DNA from: Mesobacillus jeotgali
Lineage (GTDB): Bacteria; Bacillota; Bacilli; Bacillales; Cytobacillaceae
Length of the DNA stretch: 64,000 nt
NCBI RefSeq assembly: GCF_031759225.1
Contig: NZ_CP134494.1
Location: 1,052,501 to 1,116,500 of the forward strand
Direction: 5' to 3'
Below the pieces are notes generated by a model. That model worked only from the letters and a program-made list of their open reading frames with translations. It was not told the DNA's origin and searched no databases. The translations under genes and the position numbers were made by a program. How positions within the stretch are numbered: position 1 is the first letter of the stretch; every line of letters starts with the position of its first letter. This document shows positions 7,785 to 60,660 of the stretch, one piece after another.

Positions 7785-8540
7785 TCAGACAGGTTCAACG
7801 GTAAAAGAGGGAAAGCTGTCCGAACTCGGTGCAGCTTCGGACAGATTCAGCGGTAACGGAGTGAAAGCTGTCCGAACTCGGTTCAACTTCGGACAGGTTC
7901 AGCGGTCACGGAGGAAAAGCTGTCCGAACTCAGTTCAACTTCGGACAGGTTCAGCGGTCACGGAGGGAAAGCTGTCCGAACTCGGTGCAGCTTCGGACAG
8001 GTTCAGCGGGTACAGAGGAAAAGCTGTCCGAACTCGATGAAACTTCGGACAGGTTTCAGCGTTCACGGAGGGAAAGCTGTCCGAACTCGATGCAACTTCG
8101 GACAGGTTCAGCGGGTACAGAGGAAAAGCTGTCCGAACTCAGTTCAACTTCGGACAGGTTCAGCGTTCACGGAAGGAAAGCAGTCCGAACTCGGTTCAAC
8201 TTCGGACAGGTTCAGCGGATACAGAGGAAAAGCTGTCCGAACTCAGTTCAACTTCGGACAGGTTCAGCGGGTACAGAGGGAAAGCTGTCCGAACTCGATG
8301 CAGCTTCGGACAGGTTCAGCGGGTACAGAGGAAAAGCTGTCCGAACTCGATGCAACTTCGGACAGGTTTCAGCGTTCACGGAGGGAAAGCTGTCCGAACT
8401 CGATGCAACTTCGGACAGGTTCAGCGGTCACGGAAGGAAAGCTGTCCGAACTCGATGCAGCTTCGGACAGGTTCAGCGGGTACAGAAGAAAAGCTGTCCG
8501 AACGCAGTTCAACTTCGAAACAGTTTCACCGGATACAGAG
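7785..8540. repeat. Tandem 52-bp palindrome array A (14 units)
   Basis: The word GCTGTCC (once GCAGTCC) starts at 7815, 7867, 7919, 7971, 8023, 8076, 8128, 8180, 8232, 8284, 8336, 8389, 8441 and 8493: steps of 52 with two of 53. Each unit holds the inverted pair TTCGGACAG / CTGTCCGAA around 23 bases, leaving an 11-bp linker. Loop variants (TCAGCGGTCACGG, TCAGCGGGTACAG, TCAGCGTTCACGG) shuffle along the array, so it is not one clean amplification. Open frames through it are by-products of a repeat without stops. It lies between two plus-strand genes; 8541-8834 contains the yhbH leader and no gene. Confidence 0.95.
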
Positions 8541-8834
8541 GTAGAGTCGTCCATGCCTGCCATATCTACCGCTGGGGAGGACAATATTGTAACTATCCGT
8601 GGAAAAGAACATATACAAAAGGACAATAATGCGCAAAAGGTTTACAAGATAAAATGGGCTTGTCCAGTCATAGGAGAAAAGGTTAATTGTCAAAATTATT
8701 TGTAAATTATTTTGTCTTCCTGCATAAGATAGAGTAATTACAATTCCCACAAGGGTAAAGTCCATCGGGTTATTGTATGAAGATATGGTGAATTGTGTTA
8801 CTGTCAAAATGAAAATTCAAAGGAGGGGTTGAAA

Positions 8835-10004
8835 ATGACCGATGAAAGCAGTCACCAGTTTGTGATTTCCCAGGAAGATTGGTCCCTCCACCGCAAAGGA
8901 CATGATGACCAGCAGCGCCATCAGGAAAAGGTGCAGGAAGCAATCAAGAGCAATCTGCCTGATTTGATCACTGAAGAGAATATTATCATGTCCAACGGCA
9001 GGGATGTCGTCAAGATTCCGATAAGGTCACTGGATGAATACAAAATCCGTTATAACTATGATAAGAACAAACACGTCGGCCAGGGGAACGGAGACAGTAA
9101 GGTAGGTGATGTCGTCGCCCGTGATGGCTCAGGGCAGCAGCAAGGTCCGGGAAAAGGGCAAGGCGCAGGGGACCAGGCCGGTGAAGATTATTATGAAGCA
9201 GAAGTATCGATGATGGAAATTGAAGAAGCGTTATTTAAGGAGCTGGAGCTTCCAAATCTGAAGAAGAAGGAAGAACAGGAGCATCTCGTTGAAAATATTG
9301 AATTCAACGATATCAGGAAGACTGGATTGATGGGCAATATTGACAAGAAGCGGACGATGATGTCTGCTTACAAGCGGAATGCGATGACCGGCAAGCCGTC
9401 CTTCCACCCTATTTACAAGGAGGACTTGAAGTTCAAGACCTGGAATGAGGTCGTGAAGCCAGATTCAAAGGCCGTTGTACTTGCGATGATGGATACGAGC
9501 GGAAGCATGGGACTGTGGGAAAAATACATGGCGAGAAGCTTTTTCTTCTGGATGACTCGCTTCCTTCGTTCCAAGTATGAAACAGTCGAAATTGAATTCA
9601 TCGCTCACCATACAGAAGCAAAGGTAGTTTCCGAGGAAGACTTTTTCTCAAAAGGGGAAAGCGGAGGTACAATCTGTTCGTCCGCGTATCGAAAAGCATT
9701 AGAACTTATTGATTTAAAATATAACCCTAGCAAGTTTAATATTTATCCGTTCCATTTTTCCGATGGTGATAACCTGACCTCTGACAATGCCCGCTGTGTG
9801 AAGCTAGTAGAAGAGCTGATGAAGGTCTCCAATATGTTTGGCTATGGAGAAGTCAATCAGTACAACCGCCACTCGACCCTAATGTCCGCGTATAAAAACA
9901 TTAAAGACGAAAACTTCCGTTACTATATCCTCAAGCAGAAAGCCGATGTATTCCACTCGATGAAAAGTTTTTTTAAAAAGGAAGAAAACAAATTGTATGC
10001 TTAA
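8835..10004 (+). CDS. yhbH: YhbH, DUF444 / von Willebrand A-like sporulation protein
   Basis: A 389-residue cytosolic member of the UPF0229/DUF444 family. The C-terminal half is VWA-like with the metal-site motif MMDTSGSMG (about residues 220-228). The N-terminal half has a Gly/Gln-rich linker near residues 100-120. In B. subtilis yhbH is a sporulation gene acting with PrkA; homologues pair with PrkA in many bacteria. The start follows AGGAGGGG. Separation from prkA by a small gene, a terminator and the repeat array suggests its own promoter, which I could not assign with confidence. Confidence 0.92.
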
Positions 10005-10009
10005 TTTAA

Positions 10010-10041
10010 AAATCGGCAGGATGAATCTCCTGCCGATTTTC
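10010..10041 (+). terminator. Terminator after yhbH
   Basis: AAATCGGCAGG and CCTGCCGATTT pair perfectly around eight bases and run into TTTT. The A run before it could let it serve the convergent gene too. Confidence 0.9.
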
Positions 10042-10084
10042 CTATTCCACCCACTTTTCGGGGGAAGACTCCTATAATACCAAT

Positions 10085-10888
10085 CTATTGTTTATCAATT
10101 CCAATTGCCTGGCTGCCCATTTGAACCCATGCTTTTTCAAATGATGTCCGCGGTACAGCTTTATACCCGCCGCTGGCAAGAGGGTCGTTAACGTAAATGG
10201 AATCCTCGTCATATCCGACAATCAAGACACTGTGTTCTCTATAAGTAATCTTTACATCACCGCTATTTGTCTTCCAAACGGTAAACTCCGATTCGGGAAG
10301 AGGCGCGAAGGTGGAGTTGATGATGACCCATACCGGAGATCCAGAGTCAATCAATTCATAAACTGCATCAATGGATTGTCCAGTAATATCCATGATTTTA
10401 CCGGGCAGATAGCTCTCTGCAAGCTTTGCTACAGGACCATGGTATACGCCATATCCAGACTTTTTGAAGGTATAGATGTCCCCCACAAAGCCATCATACG
10501 GATTGCCACGAATATAATTTGCGTCTCGGAAAGGAATTTTATGTATTTGCTTTGCCAGGGTCATTTTATCGGCTGAGATTCCTTCATATTGTAAAAGCAT
10601 CGTTAAGCTGGTCACTTCACAACCGCGCTGTAATTCTGGGAGCTGACTGACGTGCGGGACCCCCTCGATCATTTTTTTCTCCTCAGTATTGATGAAATTC
10701 TCCAGGGCTTTTTTATCAGCAGTAGTTTTGGTCACAGAATGTTCTTCCGTTCGGGTGATTTTAGGTGCAACTGATGATTGTGTTTCTGCCGTTGGATTTT
10801 CAATCGATCGTAAATTCTCCGCTCCCAAGTAGGTAGCCAGGAAAATGCCTCCAAGGGATAGTGTTCTAATAAGTAATTTTTTATTCAA
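10085..10888 (-). CDS. C39-like cysteine peptidase, membrane-anchored (YvpB-like)
   Basis: A 267-residue extracytoplasmic protein with an N-terminal signal/anchor helix (LLIRTLSLGGIFLATYLG), a polar spacer, and a C39-type papain-like domain from about residue 70. The putative catalytic Cys is in RGCEVTSLTMLLQY, the His in REHSVLIVGYD, followed by NDPLASGG. The family is related to C39 peptidases, but many members have no proven substrate. A TTG at 10888 is taken as start because AGGAG lies eight bases upstream; the ATG at 10906 would overlap that site and add six residues. It is divergent from the betaine transporter. Confidence 0.8.
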   Translation of the reverse strand: MNKKLLIRTLSLGGIFLATYLGAENLRSIENPTAETQSSVAPKITRTEEHSVTKTTADKKALENFINTEEKKMIEGVPHVSQLPELQRGCEVTSLTMLLQYEGISADKMTLAKQIHKIPFRDANYIRGNPYDGFVGDIYTFKKSGYGVYHGPVAKLAESYLPGKIMDITGQSIDAVYELIDSGSPVWVIINSTFAPLPESEFTVWKTNSGDVKITYREHSVLIVGYDEDSIYVNDPLASGGYKAVPRTSFEKAWVQMGSQAIGIDKQ

Positions 10889-10906
10889 AATATCTTCTCC
10901 TAACAT

Positions 10907-11237
10907 TTCTCCTTCATGTAGGCCATCAATACAAGTTTAACCAAAATTCGACAAGGATTCAATAGACTAATAGAATGATATTGGAAATCTGTTGGTAAAA
11001 AGGCAGGCTGCCTGTCAGTACTGAAAAATGATAATCGATAAATTGAGGTTTTTGGGAAAAATATAGGGGAATTTAATAGTTGATTCTGTAGGGAAGCCCA
11101 ATGTAAAAATGGATCTAAGACATTCATTTTTTTGGATGTATTGGGTAATACTATCTCTGTTATGAGTACATTCTTTCAAAAAAACAAAAATTTGTGTTAG
11201 GGTATTAAGTGCAAAAGTTGTAGAAGGGAGTTTTTTG
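10907..11237. other. Intergenic gap between divergent genes, no gene seen
   Basis: About 330 bases of AT-rich DNA between the peptidase gene and the betaine transporter. It must hold both promoters. GGGTAT near 11199 resembles a sigma-B -10, but I see no convincing matching -35. No repeat or RNA structure was recognised. Confidence 0.5.
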
Positions 11238-12755
11238 ATGAAAAAGGATTCATCTGTTTTTTTCATATCGACAGGAATTTTGTTATTGATGGTTCTTTTC
11301 GGTGTGTTTGTTCCAGATAAACTTGAATCAGTTACAGCAAATATCCAGGCATTCATTACTGATACTTTTGGCTGGTATTATTTAATTCTTGTATCTGCAA
11401 TTGTCATTGTTTGTCTGTATTTCTTGATCAGTCCACTGGGAAAGATCAGACTTGGGAAGCAGGATGACCGGCCTGAATTTGCCACCCTTACTTGGTATGC
11501 AATGCTCTTTAGTGCCGGTATGGGAATAGGGCTGGTTTTCTGGGGCACTGCTGAACCAATCAGCCATTATATGGTCTCAACACCAACCGGAGTGGAGGCA
11601 GGATCTGACCAGGCTATCCGGGATTCAATGAGATTCACGTTTTTCCACTGGGGCATCCATGCATGGGCCATTTATGGAATAGTTGCACTGGTTCTGGCTT
11701 ACTTCAATTTCAGACATGGTAAACCAGGATTGATTAGTGCGACCCTTGGACCGATTTTAGGCGACAAGACAAATGGGGCAGCTGGAAAAGTAATTGACGT
11801 GATTTCGGTTGTCGCAACTGTAATCGGTGTGGCAACAACTTTAGGATTTGGAGCTGTACAAATAAACGGGGGGCTTTCTTACCTGTTTGGAATACCTACT
11901 GGTTTTGTAACTCAATTGTTTATTGTCCTGATCGTAACAGTATTGTTCATGATATCTGCCTGGACAGGACTTGGAAAAGGCATCAAGATTTTAAGTAATG
12001 TAAACATGATACTTGCCGCATTATTGTTAGTGGCAATGCTGTTTTTGGGACCAACCCAGTTTATCCTGAACCTCTTTACCAACACAATTGGTACATACCT
12101 TCAAAATTTGCCAGCGATGAGTTTCCGGATTGCGCCATTAAATGAAGAAGTCCGTTCATGGATCAATGGCTGGACTATCTTCTACTGGGCATGGTGGATT
12201 GCCTGGGCGCCATTTGTAGGGATTTTTATAGCTCGAGTTTCTAAAGGCCGTACAATCAGGGAATTTGTATTTGGTGTATTGCTAGTGCCTTCTTTGATTG
12301 GCTTTTTATGGTTCTCTGCTTTCGGAGGTTCAGCAATCACGCTTGAGCACGAAGGAATTGCGAAAATTTCCGAACTAGCGACCGAAGAAGCACTCTTTGG
12401 AGTTTTTGCCAACTATCCTCTAAGTTCATTATTGTCCATCCTGGCAATGATCCTTATCGGTACATTCTTTATCACATCGGCAGATTCAGGCACATTTGTT
12501 TTAGGGATGATGACGACCAATGGATCACTGACACCAGGGAATAGAATCAAATTCACATGGGGAATCATGCTGGCTGCTATTTCTCTGGTACTCCTTTATT
12601 CTGGGGGGCTGCAGGCTCTGCAAAATACAATGATCGTGGCTGCACTGCCATTCTCCATCATTATGGCCTTAATGGCACTAAGCCTAATAAAAGCCTTAAG
12701 TCGAGAAGCGAAAGAACTAGGAATCGGAAAAATTCCTAAACGTAAGCCTCAATAG
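11238..12755 (+). CDS. opuD: BCCT-family glycine betaine transporter, OpuD-like
   Basis: A 505-residue secondary transporter with 12 predicted membrane helices that takes up glycine betaine or related osmolytes with Na+. Signature blocks are GMGIGLVFWGTAEPISHY (around residue 95) and FYWAWWIAWAPFVGIFIARV, the aromatic betaine-binding region of BCCT proteins. Length and sequence closely follow B. subtilis OpuD. The start at ATG 11238 follows GAAGGGAG. Expression is probably osmotic-stress controlled; the sequence does not prove it. Confidence 0.9.
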   Translation: MKKDSSVFFISTGILLLMVLFGVFVPDKLESVTANIQAFITDTFGWYYLILVSAIVIVCLYFLISPLGKIRLGKQDDRPEFATLTWYAMLFSAGMGIGLVFWGTAEPISHYMVSTPTGVEAGSDQAIRDSMRFTFFHWGIHAWAIYGIVALVLAYFNFRHGKPGLISATLGPILGDKTNGAAGKVIDVISVVATVIGVATTLGFGAVQINGGLSYLFGIPTGFVTQLFIVLIVTVLFMISAWTGLGKGIKILSNVNMILAALLLVAMLFLGPTQFILNLFTNTIGTYLQNLPAMSFRIAPLNEEVRSWINGWTIFYWAWWIAWAPFVGIFIARVSKGRTIREFVFGVLLVPSLIGFLWFSAFGGSAITLEHEGIAKISELATEEALFGVFANYPLSSLLSILAMILIGTFFITSADSGTFVLGMMTTNGSLTPGNRIKFTWGIMLAAISLVLLYSGGLQALQNTMIVAALPFSIIMALMALSLIKALSREAKELGIGKIPKRKPQ

Positions 12756-12764
12756 TTTGTAAGT

Positions 12765-12803
12765 AAGGAGTCATCCCTATTCAATTAGTGATGGCTCTTT
12801 TTT
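12765..12803 (+). terminator. Terminator after the betaine transporter
   Basis: GAGTCATC and GATGGCTC pair with one G-T wobble around a long loop, followed by TTTTTT. Confidence 0.75.
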
Positions 12804-12899
12804 CATTCAGGCTGGTTATAATGTATATCTAATTGTTCGAAAGTATTTGAACTTTTGTAAAGCTGTGGCAATTTATGAACGTTTTGTTCTTTTTTTTAA

Positions 12900-12913
12900 T
12901 GTAAATGTTTTCA
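12900..12913 (+). promoter_or_regulatory. Candidate cre (CcpA) site upstream of deoR
   Basis: TGTAAATGTTTTCA differs from the cre consensus TGWAARCGYTWWCW at one central position. It lies about 60 bp before the deoR start, consistent with carbon catabolite control of deoxyribonucleoside use. Confidence 0.55.
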
Positions 12914-12973
12914 TTCGAATTTTTTGCTAAAATGATTGTAATGAATTTAAGTCATTACCAAGGGTGATTACGA

Positions 12974-13912
12974 ATGGAAAAAGATAAATTATTGAAAGTA
13001 ATCGAAGCAGCAAAGCTATATTACTTGCTTGATTATAATCAGAATGATATTGCGAAAGAGCTGGGAGTTTCAAGGCCCACAGTATCCAGGTTCCTCCAAA
13101 TTGCAAAACAGGAGGGGATTGTCGATATCAAAATCATGGATCCGACAGAGGATGTAGAAAATTTGTCGGCACAGCTTGAGCAAAAGTTTGGCTTGAAAAA
13201 GGCAATAGTGACTCATATCCCTCAATATGAGGACAGTGTGATTAAAACGTATCTCGGGGAGAAAGCTGCCGCATTTCTGAATGAAGTAGTAGAGCATGAT
13301 GATATTATTGGTGTTACATGGGGAACGACGCTTTATCATGTTGCTTTGGAGCTTAAACAGAAACCGTGCAAGAATGTAAAGGTCGTCCAGCTGAAGGGCG
13401 GCGTAAGCCATTCTGAAACGAATACGTATGCAAATGAGATACTTTATTTATTCGGCAAAGCCTTCAATAGTGCGCCACATCATCTGCCGCTGCCTGCAAT
13501 CGTTGACCATGTCGTGGTCAAACAAGCGATGGAGGCGGACAGGCATATTAAAAAAATCTTGGAAATGGGGAAGCAATCGAACATTGCGGTCTATACAATC
13601 GGACCAATCAAGTCTGAATCTTTATTGTTCCAGTTAGGATACTTTACAGAAGAAGACTTGCAAGTCATTTATTCCCAAGCCGTCGGTGATATTTGTTCAC
13701 GGTTCTTTGATAAAGAAGGAAAGGTTTGCAACGAAAACCTTAATGCGAGAACCCTGGGCATCGAACTTGAAGAATTAAAGAAGAAGAAGTATTCAGTTTT
13801 AGTTGCGGGCGGGGCACAAAAAATAGATGGTATTTATGGAGCTTTGAAGGGGAAATATACAAATGTGCTTGTAACGGACCAATTTACTGCAAAGTTTTTG
13901 TTAGATAAGTAA
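12974..13912 (+). CDS. deoR: Deoxyribonucleoside regulator DeoR (SorC family)
   Basis: A 312-residue repressor closely resembling B. subtilis DeoR. The N-terminal helix-turn-helix is at about residues 20-45 (YNQNDIAKELGVSRPTVSRFLQ). The C-terminal sugar-binding domain has GVTWGTTLYHVA, VVQLKGG and GDICSRFF, and would bind deoxyribose-5-phosphate as inducer. In B. subtilis deoR controls deoC(dra)-nupC-pdp. Here only nupC follows, and no deoC or pdp is present in the window. It has its own terminator, with cre-like DNA upstream. Confidence 0.92.
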   Translation: MEKDKLLKVIEAAKLYYLLDYNQNDIAKELGVSRPTVSRFLQIAKQEGIVDIKIMDPTEDVENLSAQLEQKFGLKKAIVTHIPQYEDSVIKTYLGEKAAAFLNEVVEHDDIIGVTWGTTLYHVALELKQKPCKNVKVVQLKGGVSHSETNTYANEILYLFGKAFNSAPHHLPLPAIVDHVVVKQAMEADRHIKKILEMGKQSNIAVYTIGPIKSESLLFQLGYFTEEDLQVIYSQAVGDICSRFFDKEGKVCNENLNARTLGIELEELKKKKYSVLVAGGAQKIDGIYGALKGKYTNVLVTDQFTAKFLLDK

Positions 13913-13950
13913 GTGATAGGGGAATAGAGGAAAAGCCATATGAAACAAAC

Positions 13951-13989
13951 AAATACCCGATAGGTTTGAGACCTTGCGGGTATTTTTGT
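13951..13989 (+). terminator. Terminator after deoR
   Basis: AAATACCCG and CGGGTATTT close a hairpin with an inner AGGT/ACCT pair and are followed by T residues. Confidence 0.85.
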
Positions 13990-14016
13990 CGAAAAGATGA
14001 AAAGGGATAAATTTCA

Positions 14017-14102
14017 TTTTACATTTGTTTAAAAACTTATTTACAAAAGTTCTTTATCTCTGATATATTTGCTATAGAAAGTTCAAGTTAAACAAATGTA
14101 AA
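14017..14102 (+). promoter_or_regulatory. nupC promoter with large inverted DeoR-type operator
   Basis: TTTTACATTTGTTTAA at 14017-14032 is repeated inverted as TTAAACAAATGTAAA at 14088-14102. Between them lies a promoter: -35 TTTACA at 14040-14045, an 18-bp spacer, and -10 TATATT at 14064-14069. One arm sits just upstream of -35 and the other just downstream of the expected start. This suits a repressor acting by looping or double occupancy, as described for B. subtilis DeoR. Assignment to DeoR is inference from the adjacent gene. Confidence 0.7.
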
Positions 14103-14110
14103 CGTTTTAA
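14097..14110 (+). promoter_or_regulatory. Candidate cre site 1 upstream of nupC
   Basis: TGTAAACGTTTTAA matches the cre consensus except at one position. It overlaps the end of the downstream DeoR-type arm. Confidence 0.6.
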
Positions 14111-14131
14111 TGAAATTTTTTTCGTAGCATT

Positions 14132-14145
14132 TGTAAACGTTAACA
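14132..14145 (+). promoter_or_regulatory. cre site 2 upstream of nupC
   Basis: TGTAAACGTTAACA is a full match to TGWAARCGYTWWCW, centred about 60 bases after the expected transcription start and about 45 before the start codon. CcpA bound here would block elongation. Confidence 0.8.
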
Positions 14146-14182
14146 ACATTTCCACAAATATCACAACAAGAGGTGGGTCACA

Positions 14183-15397: not shown

Positions 15398-15400
15398 AAT

Positions 15401-15438
15401 GAGGAAAAGAGAGGGACTTGCTCCTTCTCTTTTTTTGC
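15401..15438 (+). terminator. Terminator after nupC
   Basis: AAAGAGAGG and CCTTCTCTTT pair imperfectly and are followed by a T run. Confidence 0.75.
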
Positions 15439-15479
15439 TTTGAGTTATAATAGAGTAAATTGAACGGAAAGCTGTGATG

Positions 15480-16247: not shown

Positions 16248-16248
16248 T

Positions 16249-16282
16249 CAGACAACCACGTTTGCGGTTGTCTGGTTTTTAT
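16249..16282. terminator. Bidirectional terminator between the NRDE gene and the nitronate monooxygenase-like gene
   Basis: CAGACAACC-ACGTTTGC-GGTTGTCTG has a T-rich run on the plus side and A/T-rich DNA on the other, between two convergent stop codons. Confidence 0.88.
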
Positions 16283-17580: not shown

Positions 17581-17614
17581 TTAACTCCTATAAATAAGAC
17601 AAATCAAACGATTT

Positions 17615-18690: not shown

Positions 18691-18990
18691 CTTGACAGCT
18701 TCGTTTCATTTAACGGAAAAGCTGTCAAGAAAACGCCGGAATCGTGACAGCTTTGGCCCAATCAACGGAAAAGCTGTCAAGAAAACGCCGGAATCGTGAC
18801 AGCTTTGGCCCGATTAACAGAAAAGCTGTCAAGAAAACGCCGGAATCGTGACAGCTTTGGCCCAATCAACGGAAAAGCTGTCAAGAAAACGCCGGAATCG
18901 TGACAGCTTTGGCCCGATTAACGGAAAAGCTGTCAAGAAAACGCCGGAATCGTGACAGCTTTGGCCCGATTAACAGAAAAGCTGTCAAAA
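18691..18990. repeat. Tandem 52-bp palindrome array B (about 6 units)
   Basis: GCTGTC occurs at 18721, 18773, 18825, 18877, 18929 and 18981, always 52 bp apart. Each unit has GACAGCTTT facing AAAGCTGTC across 15 bases, a 33-bp hairpin, then a 19-bp linker containing AACGCCGGAATCG. Loops vary at a few bases only (CAATCAACGG, CGATTAACGG, CGATTAACAG). The array lies between the divergent aldo/keto reductase and thioredoxin genes, 85 bp before the latter. No other feature is visible in 18570-19074. Confidence 0.95.
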
Positions 18991-19074
18991 AAGGACTTTT
19001 ATTTTTAAAATCAGGGTAAATTCAAGATATATAGGTAATGGAAATTGCTTAAAAGTGAAAGGAGAACGAAGTCT

Positions 19075-23689: not shown

Positions 23690-24366
23690 CCAACTTAAGA
23701 CATGTTTGAGAGGAAAACATGAAAAGCTGTCAAAAGAAGAGCCAACTTAAGACAGGTTTGAGGGAAAAACGAGAAAAGCTGTCAAAAGAAGAGCCAACTT
23801 AAGACAGGTTTGAGAGGAAAACAAGAAAAGCTGTCAAAAGAAGAGCCAACTTAAGACAGGTTTGAGGGGAAAACGAGAAAAGCTGTCAAAAGAAGAGCAA
23901 ACTTTTGACAGGTTTGATGAAGAAACAAGAAAAGCTGTCAAAAGAAGAGGCAACTTAAGACAGGTTTGAGGAGAAAGCGAGAAAAGCTGTCAAAAGAAGA
24001 GCAAACTTTTGACAGGTTTTATGGAGAAACGAGAAAAGCTGTCAAAAGCAGGGCTAACTTAAGACAGGTTTGAGGGGAAAACGAGAAAAGCTGTCAAAAG
24101 AAGAGCGAACTTTTGACAGGTATGATGGAGAAACAAGAAAAGCTGTCAAAAGAAGAGCTAACTTAAGACAGGTTTGAGGGGAAAACAAGAAAAGCTGTCA
24201 AAAGAAGAGCCAACTTAAGACAGGTTTGAGGGGAAAGCGAGAAAAGCTGTCAAAAGAAGAGCAAACTTTTGACAGGTTTTATGGAGAAACGAGAAAAGCT
24301 GTCAAAAGCAGGGCCCAACTTAAGACAGGTTTGAGGAGAAAGCGAGAAAAGCTGTCAAAAGAAAAG
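23690..24366. repeat. Tandem 52-bp palindrome array C (13 units)
   Basis: GCTGTC starts at 23726, 23778, 23830, 23882, 23934, 23986, 24038, 24090, 24142, 24194, 24246, 24298 and 24351: twelve steps, eleven of 52 and one of 53. Each unit is GACAGG...AAAAGCTGTC spanning 33 bp plus a linker. Two left-arm types mix irregularly: AACTTAAGACAGG and AACTTTTGACAGG. The second extends pairing to CTTTTGACAG/CTGTCAAAAG. The array fills the gap between divergent pbuG and the 24.6 kb gene. Apart from it, the pbuG leader and the next gene's promoter region, 23377-24575 shows nothing else. Confidence 0.95.
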
Positions 24367-47357: not shown

Positions 47358-47480
47358 GGGGGAAATTAAAGAAAATCAAATAATAACAGACGGGAGGGTT
47401 TATACTGGTAAGCATGCATTATGTTCCCCTTAAAGATGGGGATTGATTCGAAAGATAACCTTAAGCACCGGTTTTCTTCT

Positions 47481-47830
47481 TCATAAGGGTACCGTTCGAA
47501 GTAAAAGATACCCTTATGTGAGGATTCTCTTCTCCATAAGGGTACCGTTCGAGGTGAAAGATACCCTTATGCGAGTTTTTTTTCTTCATAAGGGTACCGT
47601 TCGAGGTGAAAGATACCCTTATGTGAGGATTCTCTTCTCCATAAGGGTACCGTTCGAGGTGAAAGATACCCTTATGCGAGGATTCTCTTCTTCATAAGGG
47701 TACCGTTCGAGGTGAAAGATACCCTTATGTGAGGATTCTCTTCTCCATAAGGGTACCGTTCGAGGTGAAAGATACCCTTATGAGAGGATTTTCCTCTTCG
47801 TAAGGGTCCCGTTCGACGGTAACGATCCCC
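47481..47830. repeat. Tandem 52/53-bp palindrome array D
   Basis: CATAAGGGTA begins at 47482, 47535, 47587, 47640, 47693 and 47746, with steps of 53, 52, 53, 53 and 53; a decayed seventh unit follows. Each unit pairs CATAAGGGTA with TACCCTTATG across 17 bases (CCGTTCGAGGTGAAAGA), then a linker GTGAGGATTCTCTTCTC or a shorter variant. Arms contain KpnI-like GGTACC. The array lies between two minus-strand genes. The rest of 47286-47988 holds the permease promoter and decayed repeat remnants (CCCTAAGGGTACC near 47850). Confidence 0.93.
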
Positions 47831-47988
47831 TAATGCATCAATATTAATCCCCTAAGGGTACCAATCAAGCCGAAAGGTAATATTTTGGAATTCCCCATTT
47901 ACAGAGTGAGGACATTTAAGCCGTATTTCTCCCGAAAAAAACTGCAGACATACCCCTTTTCCAGGTTTCGTCTACAGTATATAATGTG

Positions 47989-51953: not shown

Positions 51954-52054
51954 AGGGTGTTTTATGTTTGTCTCATTTAGCTAGGTAAGTTCAATTCCTT
52001 GGGCTTTTTATAAGGTCGTACATAATGTAGTCAACAAACGACTAAATATCTTTT

Positions 52055-53053: not shown

Positions 53054-53065
53054 TTCTCAGGCTCC

Positions 53066-53683: not shown

Positions 53684-54054
53684 AATATAACCTCCACATT
53701 TAACCTTTTTCATTTTTATAAGCGAAATTAATTTTAGCTTATTATTGTCGAAATAAGAAGATGTTTGATGAAAAAAATTCATGATTGTTGTTATCTCCAA
53801 GGAAAAGCATAGTGTTTCATTCCCGTTATCATGGATTTACATCCCAACTTTCAAAGGAACGAGCCCATTTTGAAAAAATGGATTGTCCGGCTGTTTAGGA
53901 CAATTTTTTGCCGGGAACTTAAACATTAATCAAAAAGAAAACTTCGGCCGATGAGCCGTTTATATAGATTTAGCGGCTGTCTGGATGGCAGCCGTTTTGA
54001 TTTGTCTTCAACCTTGCTGAGGGATACAATGGATGTAAAAGGAGGGAGATCACG
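53684..54054. other. Divergent gap with an isolated plus-strand terminator-like hairpin
   Basis: CGGCTG-TCTGGATGG-CAGCCG followed by TTTT lies at about 53975-53999. No plus-strand gene precedes it for 2 kb except the insertion sequence, and it stands just upstream of the next promoter. It may insulate the reductase from read-through or be the remnant of an attenuator. CGGCCGATGAGCCG and other short inverted words lie near it. No reading frame is seen. Confidence 0.5.
54002..54030 (+). promoter_or_regulatory. Promoter of the second aldo/keto reductase
   Basis: TTGTCT, a 17-bp spacer, TACAAT at 54025-54030; the start codon follows 25 bases later. Confidence 0.6.
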
Positions 54055-54879
54055 GTGAGTATTTTTGATACGGTGGAATTACATAACGGTGTGAAAATCC
54101 CGGCTTTTGGCCTTGGGGTCTATAAGGTTGAGGATGGGCAACAAATTGAGGAAACAATCCAGACGGCGCTTGACCTTGGATATCGGCTCATAGATACAGC
54201 TTCTTTTTACCAGAATGAAGAAGGTGTTGGACGAGCGATCCGCAATAGCAGTATTCCGAGGGAAGAGTTATTTATCACTACGAAGGTATGGAATTCTGAA
54301 CAGGGGTATGAAAATACGCTGAAAGCCTTCGATGAAAGCATGGACAGGTTAGGGCTGGATTATTTGGATTTATATCTCGTCCACTGGCCAGTAAAAGGCA
54401 AATATCTGGACACATGGCGTGCTCTTGAGCAGCTGTACAGGGAAGGCAGGGTGAAGGCAATTGGTGTCAGCAATTTTAAAATACACCACTTGCAGGATCT
54501 TCTAAGCCATGGCAAAGAAAAGCCAGTAATCAATCAAGTCGAACTCCACCCGCTGCTGTCGCAAGTCGAATTGCGCAATTTCTGCCAGGAACATGACATC
54601 AAAGTAGAGGCTTGGTCCCCGTTGTCCAGAGGCAGGTTTCTTGATGAACCTGTTCTAGGGAAGATTGCGCAACATCACGCCAAGACACCGGCTCAGGTTA
54701 TACTAAAATGGCATCTGCAAAATCAAATTATCCCGATCCCTAAATCTGTCACACCATCAAGGTTAAAGGAAAATGCAGAGCTATTTGATTTTAAGCTCGA
54801 CCAAAGAGAAATGGAAGAGATCAATGGACTTAATAAGGATCAGCGTTTTGGAGCCGATCCTGACCATATTGATTTTTGA
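54055..54879 (+). CDS. Aldo/keto reductase (YvgN/YtbE-like), second copy
   Basis: A 274-residue NADPH-dependent reductase. Tetrad residues: Asp and Tyr in LIDTASFYQNEEGVG, Lys in TTKVW, His in LVHWPVKG; IPIPKSVTPSRLKEN binds NADP. It is collinear with the protein at 17739-18569, sharing ELFITTKVWN, and GADPDHIDF against GPDPDNFDF at the C-terminus. The GTG start follows GGAGGGAG. Likely substrates are glyoxals and other reactive aldehydes. Confidence 0.92.
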   Translation: MSIFDTVELHNGVKIPAFGLGVYKVEDGQQIEETIQTALDLGYRLIDTASFYQNEEGVGRAIRNSSIPREELFITTKVWNSEQGYENTLKAFDESMDRLGLDYLDLYLVHWPVKGKYLDTWRALEQLYREGRVKAIGVSNFKIHHLQDLLSHGKEKPVINQVELHPLLSQVELRNFCQEHDIKVEAWSPLSRGRFLDEPVLGKIAQHHAKTPAQVILKWHLQNQIIPIPKSVTPSRLKENAELFDFKLDQREMEEINGLNKDQRFGADPDHIDF

Positions 54880-55313
54880 GGTGCAGCTGGCAAACCAAAT
54901 GCTAAACAATAAATTTTTTAAGACGGACTGAATTGCAATCAGTCCGTTTTTTATTTGTGAAAATGGATACATTAAAAGAAAGAGAAAAACTGCATGCTGA
55001 AAGCTGTTAGAGGATTAATTGAATCCTGGTAGGTTTTAAAATAATCCAGGGGTGGTAATGTAGGTGTACAAGCAGAAAACAACATGATTTCACATCGTAG
55101 ACTCTGCTTGTTAGACTGCAGAACAACCTGGTTTAACACCATGGTTTCTGAGGTAAGATAAGGTTAGAGCAAGCTGGTTAGCTCCCGGGAAGCAAATCAA
55201 ATCAGCATAGGCTAAATTTATTTCACTGCAGTTTGAACTCTTTAAAGGGTGTGAAACCCCTTAGCACTATTACTACTTGTAAAATACATCTACTTTTAAG
55301 GAGGAATTACATT
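54880..55313 (+). other. Long leader/gap before glsB with internal pairing, no gene
   Basis: Besides the reductase terminator this 430-base gap has no credible frame. Several pairing words stand in order: CCTGG/CCAGG (about 55026 and 55048), ACAAGCAGA facing TCTGCTTGT about 45 bases later, and ACCTGGTTT/CCATGGTTT direct words. It may be a structured leader of glsB or a small RNA. No sigma-B promoter could be assigned with confidence. Confidence 0.4.
54920..54953 (+). terminator. Terminator after the second aldo/keto reductase
   Basis: ACGGACTGA-TTGCA-TCAGTCCGT type stem with TTTTTT after it. Confidence 0.9.
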
Positions 55314-55571
55314 ATGATGAGTTTTCTTTGGGCATTAATTATTGGTGGTATTATTGGATGGTTAGCAGGATTGATCTTGGGCAGAGATATTCCTGGCGGT
55401 ATTATCGGTAACATCATCGCTGGTTTCGTAGGTGCTTGGATTGGACAAGCAATCTTAGGAGACTGGGGACCTGTAGTTGCTGACTTTGCGATTATTCCGG
55501 CATTGATCGGTGCGATTGCATTAGTATTCATCGTCAGCCTTGTAATGAAGAGCATGCGTAAAGCTGACTAA
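55314..55571 (+). CDS. GlsB/YeaQ/YmgE-family membrane protein (transglycosylase-associated)
   Basis: An 85-residue protein with three membrane helices: FLWALIIGGIIGWLAGLILG, GGIIGNIIAGFVGAWIGQAI and IIPALIGAIALVFIVSLVM. The GWLAG and GxxGxxxG-rich helices are diagnostic. It is a general-stress membrane protein of unknown mechanism. AGGAGG lies nine bases before the ATG at 55314. Confidence 0.92.
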   Translation: MMSFLWALIIGGIIGWLAGLILGRDIPGGIIGNIIAGFVGAWIGQAILGDWGPVVADFAIIPALIGAIALVFIVSLVMKSMRKAD

Positions 55572-55580
55572 TAGTAATAA

Positions 55581-55614
55581 TAAAAAATCCTTCCAAAACG
55601 GAAGGATTTTTTTG
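55581..55614. terminator. Bidirectional terminator, glsB / RluA
   Basis: AAAATCCTTCC and GGAAGGATTTT pair perfectly, with A and T runs on the two sides, between convergent genes. Confidence 0.92.
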
Positions 55615-55623
55615 TGGAATTTT

Positions 55624-56544
55624 TTAAATCTCATAAGGATCGATGTTAAGAAATATGGGCGGTTGGTCGATAAAAGGTGCGTGGCATATTATTTTTTCCT
55701 GTGTGAACGGGTGGGTGAATTCCATTTTCACACCATGCAGTGCTTGCCTGTGAAATGTATCGCTTCCGCCGTATAGTGCATCTCCAGCAAGCGGGTGCCC
55801 AATTGAGCTGAAGTGCACACGAATTTGGTGAGTCCTGCCGGTGTCGAGTGAACATTGTACAAGCGTAAGGTTTTCATGCTTTATTTTGTCCAATACTTTG
55901 AAGTGAGTGATGGCCTGCTGGCCTGTCTCCGATACTCTTCTTCTGGTTGGGTGATGACGGTCCCGGCCGATTGGTTTATTGATTGTCCCTTTTTTCTGAT
56001 GGATGATTCCGTCGGCTAAAGCCAAATAGGTTCTTTTGATATTCCGTTCCTCCAGCATTTTATCAAGAATGGCTGTAATGAGCGGATTTTTGGCAAAAAG
56101 TACGGCACCAGTTGTCTCGCGGTCAAGCCTGTGGATATGTCGCGGCCGGTTGCCTTCACCATTGGACAGCATATGGAAAGCAGCTGCGTTCGCAAGGGTA
56201 CCGCCCTGGCCGCTTACATTTGGATGGGTATCCATGCCCGCTGGCTTGTTGAAGACAATCAGATAGTCATCTTCATAGATGATATCTGCATTCAAGTATT
56301 CAGGGCTGACAGTCTGCTCTTCTTCAGTAAAAAGCTTCATGCTTAAGCGGTCACTCTTTTTGAGGGGGATTGTCCAATCTGGAACTTGGCCGTTGATCAG
56401 GACGTTCTTTTCCATCCTAAATAGATGGACCATTTTTTTCGGTGCTTTCCAAAAGTCCTTGAAAAGTGTTTCAAGAGTGTGGCTTTCCCATTCAGCGGGG
56501 ATGACGAGTTCACACCATTCGCCTTTTTTAGTAGTGTGTATCAT
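55624..56544 (-). CDS. yhcT: RluA-family pseudouridine synthase, YhcT-like
   Basis: A 306-residue pseudouridine synthase. The catalytic motif is HIHRLDRETTGAVLF with the Asp in RLD; other blocks are NKPAGMDTHPN, KRTYLALADG and DTGRTHQIRVHFSSIGHPLAGDALYGG. It isomerises uridines in rRNA or tRNA. Synteny with yhcU, yhcX and pgcA supports the yhcT assignment. Confidence 0.9.
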   Translation of the reverse strand: MIHTTKKGEWCELVIPAEWESHTLETLFKDFWKAPKKMVHLFRMEKNVLINGQVPDWTIPLKKSDRLSMKLFTEEEQTVSPEYLNADIIYEDDYLIVFNKPAGMDTHPNVSGQGGTLANAAAFHMLSNGEGNRPRHIHRLDRETTGAVLFAKNPLITAILDKMLEERNIKRTYLALADGIIHQKKGTINKPIGRDRHHPTRRRVSETGQQAITHFKVLDKIKHENLTLVQCSLDTGRTHQIRVHFSSIGHPLAGDALYGGSDTFHRQALHGVKMEFTHPFTQEKIICHAPFIDQPPIFLNIDPYEI

Positions 56545-56743
56545 ACTGATCTCCTGACTTGATTGATTTTTTTATTGGATTAGGTGAAGTACTTCAAAAA
56601 AACCACGTTTTCATACGAGAGAATCTGTCAACTTTTACCGCATGCATGGGCATAATTACCACCCAGTTAATTGGAATGAATATGTTATTCTAGGTATATA
56701 TATTACGAATAGATTACAAGGGTAAATAAAGGTGGGTCGATCA

Positions 56744-57142
56744 TTGAAAATTGTATTTGCGTCTACACCCGGACAAGAAGAGAAAGTAGTAGAACTGGCA
56801 AAGTATTTTTACACTGATATTTTTCCATTATACTTTACGGACGAAGATATTCATGAATTTGAAAGGCTTGAAGTATTACATACGAGACCCGAACAGTTCG
56901 AGAGATTCAGTACACTTGGCGATGCATTCCAGGTGATCACGAGCATGCAGACATTGATCTCTATTCTGGAGTCTGGCCATATTCCTGAAAAATATCAGTC
57001 GATGTTCCGTAAAAATGTCCAGACATTGACAGACTACGGAATTTGTTTCCCGTTTAATTACAGTCAATTCTCTGATTCGAGGCATGTTCATCTTGATTAT
57101 ATCAGTACTTACACAAAAGCCGCCAATAGACTGCTGTTATAA
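56744..57142 (+). CDS. yhcU: YhcU-family protein (DUF5365)
   Basis: A 132-residue cytosolic protein starting KIVFASTPGQEEKVVELAKY, as in B. subtilis YhcU. Function is unknown. TTG 56744 is chosen because AGGTGGG lies seven bases upstream; GTG 56732 would overlap that site. It is divergent from yhcT and convergent with the thioredoxin-like gene. Confidence 0.83.
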   Translation: MKIVFASTPGQEEKVVELAKYFYTDIFPLYFTDEDIHEFERLEVLHTRPEQFERFSTLGDAFQVITSMQTLISILESGHIPEKYQSMFRKNVQTLTDYGICFPFNYSQFSDSRHVHLDYISTYTKAANRLLL

Positions 57143-57169
57143 TCCAAAACTACTATCAAAAACAAATTA

Positions 57170-57198
57170 AAACGCCTGCGATTCGCAGGCGTTTTTGT
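57170..57198. terminator. Bidirectional terminator, yhcU / thioredoxin-like gene
   Basis: AACGCCTGCG-AT-CGCAGGCGTT with TTTTT following. Confidence 0.9.
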
Positions 57199-57200
57199 AT

Positions 57201-57671
57201 TTACTTCAATGTGTTCTCGTTGAACCAATCTTCGAAAGTTGCTTCCTCCTGATAGCCGACGATTCGGTTGACTTCTTTTCCATCCTTGTACTGGACGATG
57301 GTTGGAGTTGATTCGATTCCGTAGTCATTCCAGCCCTGTTCGAATTCAAGAAGATTGTATTGAATAAGATCCACATCCATCTCCTGTGCTAGTGGTGCCA
57401 CAATTGGTGTGGTACGGACACAGTGAGGGCATGTTGGACTGTAAAAGTAAACCGTAACATCCTCGCCGTTTTCAAGCTTCTTATCCAGCTCATCAGGCAG
57501 GACGATGTTTTGATAGTTTGGGTCATCCAGCTGTTTGACCGTCTCTGGGTGAAGCGTGTCCTTGCCGTATGGATTTCCTTCGGCTTGTTCCTCGTTTTGT
57601 GCTTTATTCAGGAAAAATAATGCTGCAAATAAACCAATGATGATTACTAGAAAAATAATGACCTTTTTCAA
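57201..57671 (-). CDS. Membrane-anchored thioredoxin-like thiol-disulfide oxidoreductase (Bdb partner)
   Basis: A 156-residue extracytoplasmic thioredoxin with an N-terminal anchor (VIIFLVIIIGLFAALFFL) and the active site SPTCPHCVRT near residue 80; ESTPTIVQY carries the cis-proline. It starts one base after the bdbC stop and reads in the same direction, so both are made together. It should introduce or isomerise disulfides in exported proteins with BdbC reoxidising it. Confidence 0.9.
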   Translation of the reverse strand: MKKVIIFLVIIIGLFAALFFLNKAQNEEQAEGNPYGKDTLHPETVKQLDDPNYQNIVLPDELDKKLENGEDVTVYFYSPTCPHCVRTTPIVAPLAQEMDVDLIQYNLLEFEQGWNDYGIESTPTIVQYKDGKEVNRIVGYQEEATFEDWFNENTLK

Positions 57672-57672
57672 T

Positions 57673-58110
57673 TTACGCTTCCTCCTTAGATTTCTGCCAG
57701 ATCAACAGGCTTAATGTAAAAATGATGATAAATGCAGTTAAAGCCAGGAATGGGATCGTGATAAAACCAAGCCAGTTGATATATTGGCCAGTACAAGGCA
57801 CCCGGCCGCAAGTAACAGCATTGTCGGCCATGAATGGCACCTTCTGCAATGAATAATGGTAGAGGGAAATCAATCCGCCTACAGCCGACATAATCATCGT
57901 ATAAAAGGAGATTTTATAATCTTTTTTTACAACAGCGATTCCGAGTATCAAGGCAAAAGGATACATCAGGATTCGCTGGTACCAGCATAACAGGCAGGGC
58001 TCATACTGTCGGATTTCCGAGAAATACAAACTGCCGAACATGGCAATGATCGATGTAGCCCAAGCCGCAAATAAAAACGACTCCCTCGAATCTTTTTTCG
58101 TCTTTTCCAA
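57673..58110 (-). CDS. bdbC: DsbB-type quinone-linked disulfide oxidoreductase BdbC
   Basis: A 145-residue four-helix membrane protein. The two periplasm-type Cys pairs are CLLCWYQR near residue 40 and CGRVPC near residue 102, the DsbB hallmarks. It transfers electrons from the partner thioredoxin to quinones. First gene of a two-gene operon. Confidence 0.93.
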   Translation of the reverse strand: MEKTKKDSRESFLFAAWATSIIAMFGSLYFSEIRQYEPCLLCWYQRILMYPFALILGIAVVKKDYKISFYTMIMSAVGGLISLYHYSLQKVPFMADNAVTCGRVPCTGQYINWLGFITIPFLALTAFIIIFTLSLLIWQKSKEEA

Positions 58111-58349
58111 GCTAATCTCCCCTAAGCTATGTAATTTCTATTTAAACAATCTTTATAAAGAAAACACTTATCTCTCATTACATCTTAAGGAATGTAATAA
58201 AATATTTCAATTAACATTATGTGAATTTATTTTTCCCAATAGAAAAGGGGAAGATAAATAAACAGTATTATTAGATGGCCATTTTGGGTATAGGGATATG
58301 CTGAGTAAATTTACATACGTAATTTTTTATTGAGAGGATGCAGATTTGT

Positions 58350-59888
58350 ATGAGTGAATTGGATTTGTCCAAATTTGAAAAAAGAATGATCATCCGCAAC
58401 ACGAGGCAAGAGGATATTGATGAAATCATCAAAATGCAGAACAGCTGCTTTCCTGGGATGGACCCATGGAAGCGGGACCAGCTGGAGAGCCATCTTGAAA
58501 TCTTCCCTGAAGGCCAATTTGTCGCTGAATATGATGGGAAAGTGGTAGGTTCTTGTTCGAGCCTGATTATAAACTTTGATGAATACGATGACCGCCATAG
58601 CTGGGATGATGTCACAGATGAAGGATACATCACGAACCATAATCATGATGGCTACAATTTATATGGAATTGAAGTGATGACCCATCCTGAATTCAGGAGA
58701 ATGAAGGTTGGTTACCGGTTATACGAAGCGAGGAAGGATCTTGCGAGGCAGATGAACCTGAAGAGTATCATCATTGGCGGAAGAATTCCGAATTACCACT
58801 TGCACGCTGAGGAAATGTCGCCTCGTGAATATGTGCGGCAGGTCGCATCGCATAAAATCTATGATCCCGTACTCTCATTCCAGCTGAGGAACGATTTTAC
58901 ACTAATGAGGATCAATCCAAACTATCTTCCGGATGATCTTCAGTCCAACAAGTATGCTACCTTGATGGAATGGAATAATGTCGACTATCAGCCAAAGTCA
59001 AAGCGTTTTTATAAAACAAGCAATCCTGTACGGATATGCGTTGTCCAGTATATGATGAGACAAATCAAGTCATTTGATGATTTTGCTCATCAGTGTGAAT
59101 ACTTTACGGATGTCGCATCGGATGCTGGATCTGATTTTGCCGTGTTCCCGGAAATCTTCACGACCCAGCTGATGTCCTTCATGGATGAGAAGTCCCCATC
59201 GCTCGCAGTCCGCAGGGTGACAGAATATACAGAGCAGTACATCGAGCTCTTCACCGACCTGGCTGTCCGCTACAATGTGAACATCATCGGTGGTTCTCAT
59301 TTGGTAAAAGAAGATGATGATGAGATTTACAATATTTCCTATCTATTCCGCCGCGATGGTACAATCGATAAGCAATATAAGCTCCATATCACGCCAAATG
59401 AGCGCAGGTGGTGGGGCATCAGCCGCGGCGATGAGCTGAAGGTGTTCGATACTGACTGTGGCAAAATCGCTATCCAAATTTGTTATGATATCGAGTTCCC
59501 TGAGCTTGCAAGGATTGCCACGGATAGGGGAGCCAAAATCATTTTCACGCCATTCTGTACCGAAGATCGCCAGGGTTATCTGCGGGTGCGATATTGTGCC
59601 CAGGCAAGAGCGGTCGAGAACCAGGTATACACAGTCATTTCAGGTACTGTCGGCAACCTGCCGCAAACAGAGAACATGGATATCCAGTATGCACAATCAG
59701 GAATCTTCGCGCCATCGGATTTTGAATTCGCGAGGGACGGAATCGTCGGCGAAACAAACCCGAACATTGAAATGGTCATGATCGGGGATGTCGACCTGGA
59801 AATCCTGCGCCGCCAGCGCCAGGACGGTACAGTCCGCCAGCTGAAAGACCGCAGACATGATATTTATCGTATACAGTATAAGAAGTAG
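58350..59888 (+). CDS. yhcX: GNAT acetyltransferase - carbon-nitrogen hydrolase fusion, YhcX-like
   Basis: A 512-residue two-domain protein like B. subtilis YhcX (513). Residues about 10-190 are a GNAT domain (EGQFVAEYDGKVVGSCSSLI, MTHPEFRRMKVGYRLYEARK). Residues about 215-495 are a nitrilase-superfamily amidase with the Glu-Lys-Cys triad: Glu in AVFPEIF, Lys in YKLHITPNERRWWG, Cys in IAIQICYDIEFPE. The fusion suggests coupled acylation and amide hydrolysis; the substrate is unknown. ATG 58350 is chosen; ATG 58338 overlaps GAGAGG. Confidence 0.92.
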   Translation: MSELDLSKFEKRMIIRNTRQEDIDEIIKMQNSCFPGMDPWKRDQLESHLEIFPEGQFVAEYDGKVVGSCSSLIINFDEYDDRHSWDDVTDEGYITNHNHDGYNLYGIEVMTHPEFRRMKVGYRLYEARKDLARQMNLKSIIIGGRIPNYHLHAEEMSPREYVRQVASHKIYDPVLSFQLRNDFTLMRINPNYLPDDLQSNKYATLMEWNNVDYQPKSKRFYKTSNPVRICVVQYMMRQIKSFDDFAHQCEYFTDVASDAGSDFAVFPEIFTTQLMSFMDEKSPSLAVRRVTEYTEQYIELFTDLAVRYNVNIIGGSHLVKEDDDEIYNISYLFRRDGTIDKQYKLHITPNERRWWGISRGDELKVFDTDCGKIAIQICYDIEFPELARIATDRGAKIIFTPFCTEDRQGYLRVRYCAQARAVENQVYTVISGTVGNLPQTENMDIQYAQSGIFAPSDFEFARDGIVGETNPNIEMVMIGDVDLEILRRQRQDGTVRQLKDRRHDIYRIQYKK

Positions 59889-59898
59889 GATTGCGTAC

Positions 59899-59939
59899 AC
59901 CACCTGGGGTAAATGCTCGATGCCCCAGGTCTTTTTTGA
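59899..59939 (+). terminator. Terminator after yhcX
   Basis: ACCTGGGGTA and a GCCCCAGGT arm pair around a loop, followed by CTTTTTT. Confidence 0.88.
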
Positions 59940-59995
59940 TCATGATGAAAAGAGTGAACAGGTATTAACTCCTAATTTTTCCTTTAATAGGATGA

Positions 59996-60100
59996 AGGTG
60001 CAATTATGCCTTTTCTTCGTGCAATTATCACCTTTATTGGTGCAATTATCACTATGTATCGTGCAATTACCTGTGTTGTCCGTGCAATTATCTCCAATGA
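59996..60100. repeat. 21-bp tandem array of GTGCAATTA (5 units)
   Basis: GTGCAATTA starts at 59998, 60019, 60040, 60061 and 60082, exactly 21 bp apart. The nine-base word is constant while the 12-base spacers differ in sequence (CTTTTCTTC, CCTTTATT, CTATGTATC, CTGTGTTGTC). Constant box plus variable spacer at two helical turns resembles an array of protein-binding sites. Confidence 0.85.
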
Positions 60101-60179
60101 GTAAGAGAATAATTTTTCCAATTGGCTGATCGGTTGTCTTTGTTCTCGTTTTTCAAGACAAATGCGCCTGCTTAGACTA

Positions 60180-60660
60180 GATGACGGACACTTCTGTCCG
60201 TGAAGAGCTAGATGACGGACACTTTCTCGCCTTTTTCACGAATTTCTGTCCGTCATGTGCTAGATGACGGACACTTTCTCGCCTTTTTCACGAATTTCTG
60301 TCCGTCACAAGCTAGATGGCGGACACTTTCTCGCCTTTTTCACGAATTTCTGTCCGTCATGTGCTAGATGACGGACACTTTCTCGCCTTTTTCACGAATT
60401 TCTGTCCGTCACGAGCTAGATGACGGACACTTTCTCGCCTTTTTCACGAATTTCTGTCCGTCACGAGCTAATTGACGGACACTTTCTCGCCTTTTTCACG
60501 AATTTCTGTCCGTCACGAGCTAGATGACGGACACTTCCACGCAGTTTTCATGGATTCCTGTCCGTCATTTGCTAAGTGACGGACACTTTCTCGCCTTTTT
60601 TACGAATTTCTGTCCGTCACGAGCTAGATGACGGACACATTCCTGTGGTTTTCATGAATT
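60180..60660. repeat. Tandem 52-bp palindrome array E (9-10 units)
   Basis: GACGGACA (once GGCGGACA) starts at 60214, 60266, 60318, 60370, 60422, 60474, 60526, 60578 and 60630, all 52 bp apart, preceded by a shortened unit at 60183. Each unit pairs TGACGGACA with TGTCCGTCA. Inside, GACAC...CTGTC spans 33 bp, as in arrays A-C. The loop CTTTCTCGCCTTTTTCACG is constant in most units and diverged in those at 60526 and 60630. The gap 59889-60734 holds only this array, the 21-bp array, a terminator and the pgcA leader. Confidence 0.95.

Follow-up and report, generated by a model that had tools for sequence, protein, structure and literature searches.

Tandem arrays of 52-bp dyad repeats in Mesobacillus jeotgali are paired with genes for NERD-type, nuclease-like proteins

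What does a set of tandem repeats belong to, when the repeats share one length and differ in sequence from place to place? The question is raised by a 64,000-nucleotide (nt) stretch of the Mesobacillus jeotgali chromosome (contig NZ_CP134494.1), positions 1052501-1116500 in a one-contig genome of 4.63 Mb. This whole stretch is referred to as the window. Tandem repeats were located with TRF, and five arrays, A to E, lie at the places and have the 52/53-bp periods that an earlier, sequence-only reading of the window had given (Table 1). The same reading held that the repeats had no published description, which is wrong. Subirana and Messeguer described 52-nt and 20-21-nt repeats in Bacillus that are constant in size, variable in sequence and unexplained in function, and repeats of 51-53 nt make up 1886 of their 4029 repeats in 176 genomes (PMC6749651, PMC8161180). 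All five window arrays, with a period of 51-53 and at least 4 copies, fall within this 52-nt class. A match of all arrays to one known family of known mechanism, which had been named as a possible outcome, is thus found in its first half, one published class, and fails in its second, as that class has no known mechanism. The repeats are already published, and the protein-array system described here, in which arrays adjoin genes for a NERD-type protein, is the new part.

The pairing emerges from proteins encoded beside arrays. Of 329 flank proteins from at least 97 named loci, more belong to a protein of 302 amino acids (aa) than to any other family (9 loci, 9 records), and an array lies 8-103 bp behind its stop codon in 9/9 such loci. 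These named loci had been picked by the geometry of the array family termed F1; the counts that follow come from protein searches. The M. jeotgali genome has seven paralogues of this protein (group I), and a 51-53-bp array is found 5-62 bp downstream of each of the seven. The seven "home" arrays represent seven different sequence families: F1, a CGGACAAAA type, a CCCGAAAA type, F2 (TAGACATTT), TAGAATTTTTCTATGTGACC, CACCAAT/ATTGGTGACC, and F3 (ACCCTTATG). Each half-site family thus seems to be tied to its own protein paralogue, while the geometry is common to several. A protein search of Bacilli yielded 101 group-I genes, 99 of which have at least 200 bp of downstream sequence; an array is present on the 3′ side in 91 of these 99, and a 52- or 41-type array is found upstream in 4/101. 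In comparison, 12 of 228 random open reading frames (ORFs) from the M. jeotgali genome have a 52-type array downstream, and 22 have an array of any size class. Between genomes, the nearest array belongs to the nearest protein in 264 of 310 comparisons (130 by chance; the comparisons are not independent). Away from the home genes, 24 of 43 dispersed arrays in the M. jeotgali genome clearly match one home family, and 23 of these exceed a reversed-sequence control.

The partner is a NERD protein by Pfam (PF08378; bit scores 47.9 and 58.4, cut-off 22.1). The residues of its nuclease motif, E42, D74, D/E87 and K89, are kept in 99, 99, 97 and 99 of 99 proteins, respectively. Catalytic-type residues of the NERD and PD-(D/E)xK nucleases are therefore conserved, and by its sequence the protein is nuclease-like. 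In fold comparison, residues 3-179 may resemble PD-(D/E)xK nucleases (middling Z), and residues 180-302 are barely covered. The 302-aa protein also has a zinc-ribbon-like cysteine segment and a C-terminal end that we take to be winged-helix-like. A PDB sequence search gave no match at E up to 1, and PADLOC and NCBIfam, with three proteins tried, gave weak matches only, to the NERD parts of other proteins. The gene whose home array is F1, NH1, stands amid housekeeping-type genes in 17/17 loci, and its place is conserved. In three genomes (G013, G010, G020; loci L230, L232, L233) the NH1 gene is preceded, at a distance of 124-128 bp, by a 55-56-bp tandem repeat. Of the seven group-I NERD genes of M. 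jeotgali, five are on the lagging strand (214900, 661170, 1907364, 2759698, 3273667). The record JAGGQZ01, titled Chryseobacterium sp. ISL-80 (L038, L083, L124 and others), has F1 arrays and a NERD gene typical of these bacilli, and its name therefore looks wrong.

Within the units the spacing is strict. In arrays A, B, C and E the pair GACA...TGTC spans 33 bp and the gap to the next unit is 19 bp. The span had been given for these four arrays by the sequence-only reading, and it extends well beyond them: over 39 loci of the same genome, 38 chosen independently of the geometry and one via a looser form of it, the span is 33 in 233/244 and the gap 19 in 229/245. The presence of GACAG and CTGTC in one unit amounts to a short signal and its reverse. 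The pattern GACAG-N23-CTGTC-N19-GACAG has 363 matches on the plus strand and 354 on the minus strand of the M. jeotgali genome, with 0 in a reversed control, which places the geometry far beyond chance; over 61 genomes the reversed control gave one match, in G001. The same dyad can be seen in the published repeats, as TGTC-N19-GACA occurs in 5 of the 27 consensus units of Table 1 in PMC8161180, while of 2000 shuffles 1978 gave 0 and 22 gave 1.

Arms are kept and loops drift, as had been proposed. Mismatch between unit and consensus within arrays is 2.1% at the eight GACA/TGTC positions, compared with a mean of 9.9% at the others and up to 21% at spacer centres. It should be noted that the 140 of 149 arrays in this analysis were registered by GACA-N25-TGTC in the consensus, so that agreement between arrays at those eight letters follows from the registration itself; mismatch within arrays is free of that effect, apart from a slight residual bias towards low values in the arms. 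Positions that took no part in the registration are also low, i.e., TT at -4/-3, T at +6 and A at +36 (1.7-2.8%). The half-site consensus is roughly TTNNGACAGNTTT, and in its sequence it looks like a recognition site in duplex DNA.

The array period also goes with the protein. The smallest periods of 92 home arrays are 41 (8), 42 (1), 51 (8), 52 (65), 53 (5), 61 (3, of which L330 and L332 show 21-bp sub-units) and 62 (2). They form the classes 41-42 (9), 51-53 (78) and 61-62 (5), which correspond to 4, 5 and 6 helical turns. The earlier argument that 52 bp is five turns of the helix is strengthened by these homologous systems. Mapped on the protein tree, the period labels require 9 changes, against a mean of 20.4 for shuffled labels with 0/200 as low; this clustering is helped by near-copies, and several joins are on long branches. 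Among more distant Bacilli, 41-42-bp arrays are seen downstream of NERD genes in G214, G224, G235 and others (L283-L286, L288, L289), and 62-bp arrays downstream of those at L290 and L291.

The 20-21-bp repeats, the other published size class, are associated with a second NERD subfamily. Distant NERD paralogues of ~330 aa have 20-21-bp arrays upstream in 10/11 cases. Ten distant NERD genes had been taken as negative controls; 9/10 carry such upstream arrays, so they are no control for linkage, and the random ORFs serve instead. In 30 class-wide loci of the ~330-aa subfamily, two of them already counted among the 11, arrays of 20-21 (or 40-41) bp are found on at least one side in 20 and on neither in 10; some loci show an identical unit on both sides of the gene. 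Thus both published size classes go with NERD genes. The second subfamily is present in 66 of 398 Bacilli genomes.

A co-occurring protein family had been called for, and across genomes the F1 protein and F1 units are present and absent together. The protein search matched 20 of 21 genomes of the genus. The F1 protein (at least 78% identity) is found in 16/21, and all 16 hold F1 units, 50-363 by plus-strand count. G008 and G014 have 44% paralogues only, and 0 F1 units. In a draw from the class, the protein (E up to 1e-25, at most 5 candidates scored per genome) is in 27/398 Bacilli genomes; a five-arm GACA geometry is in 8/398, all 8 among the 27, with 0 in the reversed control. A draw from the phylum (E up to 1e-20) found the protein in 5/398 genomes, all of the same class. 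Samples at fixed coordinates were also compared (100 kb per genome, 400 kb for M. jeotgali; genomes chosen partly for one long contig). Repeats of 51-53 bp occur in 4/5 genomes with group I and in 0/8 without, and repeats of 20-22 bp in 6/9 with the second subfamily (group II) and in 0/4 without. One contig of a viral collection carries the array geometry.

These observations are probably best explained by a two-part system in which a NERD-type nuclease drives the growth and spread of its own array, with a logic like that of the repetitive extragenic palindromic (REP) sequences and their associated tyrosine transposases (RAYT). One part would be a gene, present in single copy, that encodes a NERD-type nuclease whose C-terminus is winged-helix-like and which also has a zinc-ribbon-like segment. 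The other would be the dyad sites, repeated in tandem every 4, 5 or 6 helical turns, both in the home array behind the gene and in dispersed arrays of the same family. Because the periods step by whole turns, the C-terminal domain very probably binds the dyads, all on one face of the DNA. The nuclease would nick or cut in or near the array, and repair coupled to replication would add, remove and homogenise units and rarely seed a new locus; the chances that units are changed, homogenised and occasionally spread in this manner are about even. The nuclease is cast as the driver since its catalytic residues are kept and its gene stays put while arrays turn over. The element, more than the host, may be what selection acts on; by analogy with what has been proposed for REP/RAYT, upkeep could just as well be largely self-driven as a host task. 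A wider reading is slightly favoured over its negation: the 52-nt and 20-21-nt satellites and their 41- and 62-bp cousins may be cognate arrays of one NERD nuclease superfamily, unrelated to CRISPR (clustered regularly interspaced short palindromic repeats) and to RAYT, in which the protein would set the sequence by its DNA-binding domain and the length as whole turns, and the nuclease would spread the arrays.

Several observations weigh against such a system. Among genus genomes, the best that G002 (10 units) and G011 (1 unit) offer is a 65-66% homologue, and in G009 (14 units; genome 66% complete) no protein matched. G010 has group I and shows no 51-53-bp array in its 100-kb sample. No array is in reach for 8 of the 99 group-I genes. 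Of the dispersed arrays, 19/43, array E included, are without a clear home family, and the reversed control of this scoring reached 16; most unassigned arrays fall between NH1, NH2 and NH3. Words of the home arrays show a weak excess in the 300 bp upstream of genes (2.87 vs 1.30), so autoregulation is not evident. Finally, the binding and cutting of arrays by the nuclease is something we infer, and the nuclease may act elsewhere.

The distribution of arrays along the chromosome bears on a different role. Tandem repeats of 3 or more copies were surveyed in the window and in 20 evenly spaced stretches of 20 kb; of the 26 found, 18 have a period of 52 or 53, the rest being 20-21 (7) and 33 (1). 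Periods are thus not broadly distributed, as they would have been if 52 bp were a coincidence here. In the 400 kb alone, 51-53 bp accounts for 19/29 repeats with at least 2.5 copies, and scaling of this sample gives an estimated ~220 such arrays per genome. GC (guanine-cytosine) skew switches sign between the stretches at 2.17-2.19 and 2.40-2.42 Mb. An asymmetric F1 pattern has 65 plus-strand matches, all at 0.04-2.20 Mb, and 45 minus-strand matches, of which the 35 listed are at 3.41-4.47 Mb. The same rule is obeyed by 30/32 matches in G018 (two plus-strand matches at 4.69 Mb are exceptions) and by 17 of the 18 listed, out of 27, in G010, orientation in both being judged without measured termini. 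If the terminus is placed at 2.3 Mb, 40 of 43 M. jeotgali arrays have the leading strand as their purine-rich one, including an array between two genes that point the other way. The exceptions are array D (48% purine), array E (39%; purine-rich strand lagging) and an array at 2147180 (48%). Purine content on this strand is 62.7% in arrays and 53.0% in flanks, so general strand composition explains the orientation in part at most. Array orientation follows replication, not genes.

The arrays themselves turn over. At the locus of array B, an array is present in 12 of 16 relatives with 2.3-20.3 copies and is absent in G019, G002, G001 and G014. At the locus of array A, degenerate units are kept in G012, G016 and G007, and G006 can be aligned in the flanks only. 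Relics and expanded arrays share locus-specific units; thus arrays grow, shrink and decay in place. The arrays could be chromosome-organising sites, with proteins that coat the phased arrays and serve the host by bridging or anchoring its nucleoid, a role which Subirana and Messeguer suggested for an unknown protein. Arrays all along the chromosome, whole-turn phasing, replication orientation and constrained half-sites would all suit this role. However, a scaffold would not need the nuclease motif that 97/99 proteins keep, close species differ by gains and losses of array sites, G008 and G014 do without the F1 family altogether, and several families run in parallel in one genome. We regard an organising role as unlikely.

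A place for the nuclease in an immune system, with the arrays as self-marks, decoys or regulators, is less probable still. NERD domains do occur in defence proteins, and the protein gives weak matches to the PglW and MAD6 models; however, these matches fall well short of the family cut-offs and extend over the NERD part, the NH1 gene keeps to housekeeping-type surroundings, and the arrays are without unique spacers.

A function at the RNA level was also considered, in which arrays are transcribed and the protein acts on repeated hairpin RNA, e.g., via its own 3′ end. The position of home arrays 3′ of the gene would fit, as would the 52-nt repeats seen in RNA-seq of B. coagulans (PMC8625621). 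Pairing in F1 is weak, however: in the position that adjoins the conserved arms on the outside, 90 of 140 array consensuses have a G.G pair. Within units, double changes at arm pairs 0 to 4 number 24, where 9.7 are expected; 12 of the 24 are compensatory, where chance would give a third, about 8. The eight neighbouring pairs (-4 to -1, 5 to 8) show 10 double changes where 14.5 are expected, 3 of them compensatory. Selection for hairpins or cruciforms is therefore not clearly supported, nor are the phased cruciforms that had been put forward, although by the arm counts there may be a weak pairing constraint. In addition, orientation tracks replication rather than genes, the purine-rich strand of home arrays is sense to the NERD gene in some cases and antisense in others, and second-subfamily arrays lie upstream or on both sides. 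An RNA system is thus quite improbable. Neutral satellites grown by slippage alone, with incidental gene linkage, would account for the variable copy number at orthologous loci and the decay to relics, and are hardly credible in view of the low half-site mismatch, the fixed spacing, the excess of arrays at group-I genes over random ORFs and the periods that go with protein clades.

Features of the window and related loci are collected in Table 1. Array A has half-sites GGACAG/CTGTCC, and its family is not clearly assigned (k-mer scores 20 vs 18); array E is assigned to no home family. The arms of array D, ACCCTTATG/CATAAGGGT, are unlike the GACA...TGTC of the other four. None of the arrays examined is inside a called gene, spurious ORFs within arrays being set aside (the ORF caller is a rough one). 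Over the window, Rfam gathering scores were reached by tRNAs and the purine riboswitch only, and the arrays had no match. A decayed array might be present at 704-824, where an imperfect period-50 repeat (2.4 copies) has parts like CTTATTCGACC/CATAAGCATCC.

Table 1. Arrays and other features, in window coordinates unless a genome position or locus is given
Feature	Position	Strand	Period and copies	Context	Family or remark
Array A	7784..8541	+	52 bp, 14.5	between prkA and DUF444 gene	
Array B	18710..18992	+	52 bp, 5.5	flanked by two minus-strand genes	NH1 (F1)
Array C	23690..24363	+	52 bp, 12.9	upstream of purine-riboswitch permease gene	NH1 (F1)
Array D	47450..47862	+	53 bp, 7.3 (TRF row 47450-47836; second row to 47862)		NH7 (F3)
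Array E	60192..60642	-	52 bp, 8.7		arms TGTCCGTCA/TGACGGACA
21-bp tandem repeat	59998..60069	.	21 bp, 3.4	beside array E	size class of second NERD subfamily
Purine riboswitch RF00167	23481-23582	-		upstream of permease gene, 108 bp from array C	
Second NERD subfamily loci	L294-L303, L334-L363; own genome G000:C1:4409317-4410303		20-21-bp arrays flanking		

The system can be set beside those already known. As far as the consulted parts of PMC6749651 and PMC8161180 go, the present arrays agree with the Subirana-Messeguer repeats in their 51-53 period, their non-coding position, the presence of several families per genome, the variation between relatives and the 20-21-bp repeats alongside. Those parts note short signals and their reverse, and propose an unknown polymerising protein or a small RNA; neither a partner protein nor sequence conservation is reported there, and the text of PMC8161180, searched for orientation, leading strand, palindrom and symmetr, has none of these words. 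The 33/19 dyad rule, the replication orientation, the 41- and 62-bp relatives and the linked gene go beyond them. An open-access search found no paper with the partner protein, the dyad rule, the whole-turn periods or the replication orientation, and none tying NERD to repeats, most subscription papers being outside that search. The repeats were published as enigmatic; the NERD family is their first candidate partner, and the gene-by-gene pairing makes the question of their purpose directly testable. If the two-part reading holds, it also provides paralogues that may differ in DNA specificity, and naturally occurring arrays whose spacings step by whole helical turns.

In plasmid centromeres, sopC for one, a DNA-binding protein has a dyad site in every unit of a tandem array. 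Here, in contrast, an estimated 200 or more arrays are on one chromosome, and the linked protein is nuclease-like. Compared with NERD (PF08378) proteins at large, the present subfamily has an added zinc-ribbon-like segment and a winged-helix-like end. As in CRISPR, a repeat array stands beside a nuclease-type gene; unlike CRISPR, and as the sequence-only reading had concluded, there are no unique spacers, since the spacers of an array recur with small drift. Drift accounts for the differences between units, arrays are at very many loci, and no cas gene is among the flank proteins inspected.

The likeness to REP/RAYT consists in a single-copy nuclease-type gene beside cognate repeats, many dispersed non-autonomous copies and vertical inheritance of the gene; here the partner gene adjoins its own repeats in 91/99 cases and 24/43 dispersed arrays clearly match one home family. 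A Y1 HUH transposase (PF01797) was tried as partner and rejected, as it is absent from three of the 21 genus genomes (G006, G014, G015), two of which have 223 and 208 F1 units. Unlike RAYT, which is a Y1 HUH transposase, the partner is a NERD protein of putative PD-(D/E)xK type, and unlike REP, the dyads are of duplex type, in long arrays phased to whole helical turns. If the two-part system is real, it would be another way, beside CRISPR and RAYT/REP, for a nuclease and a repeat array to keep each other.

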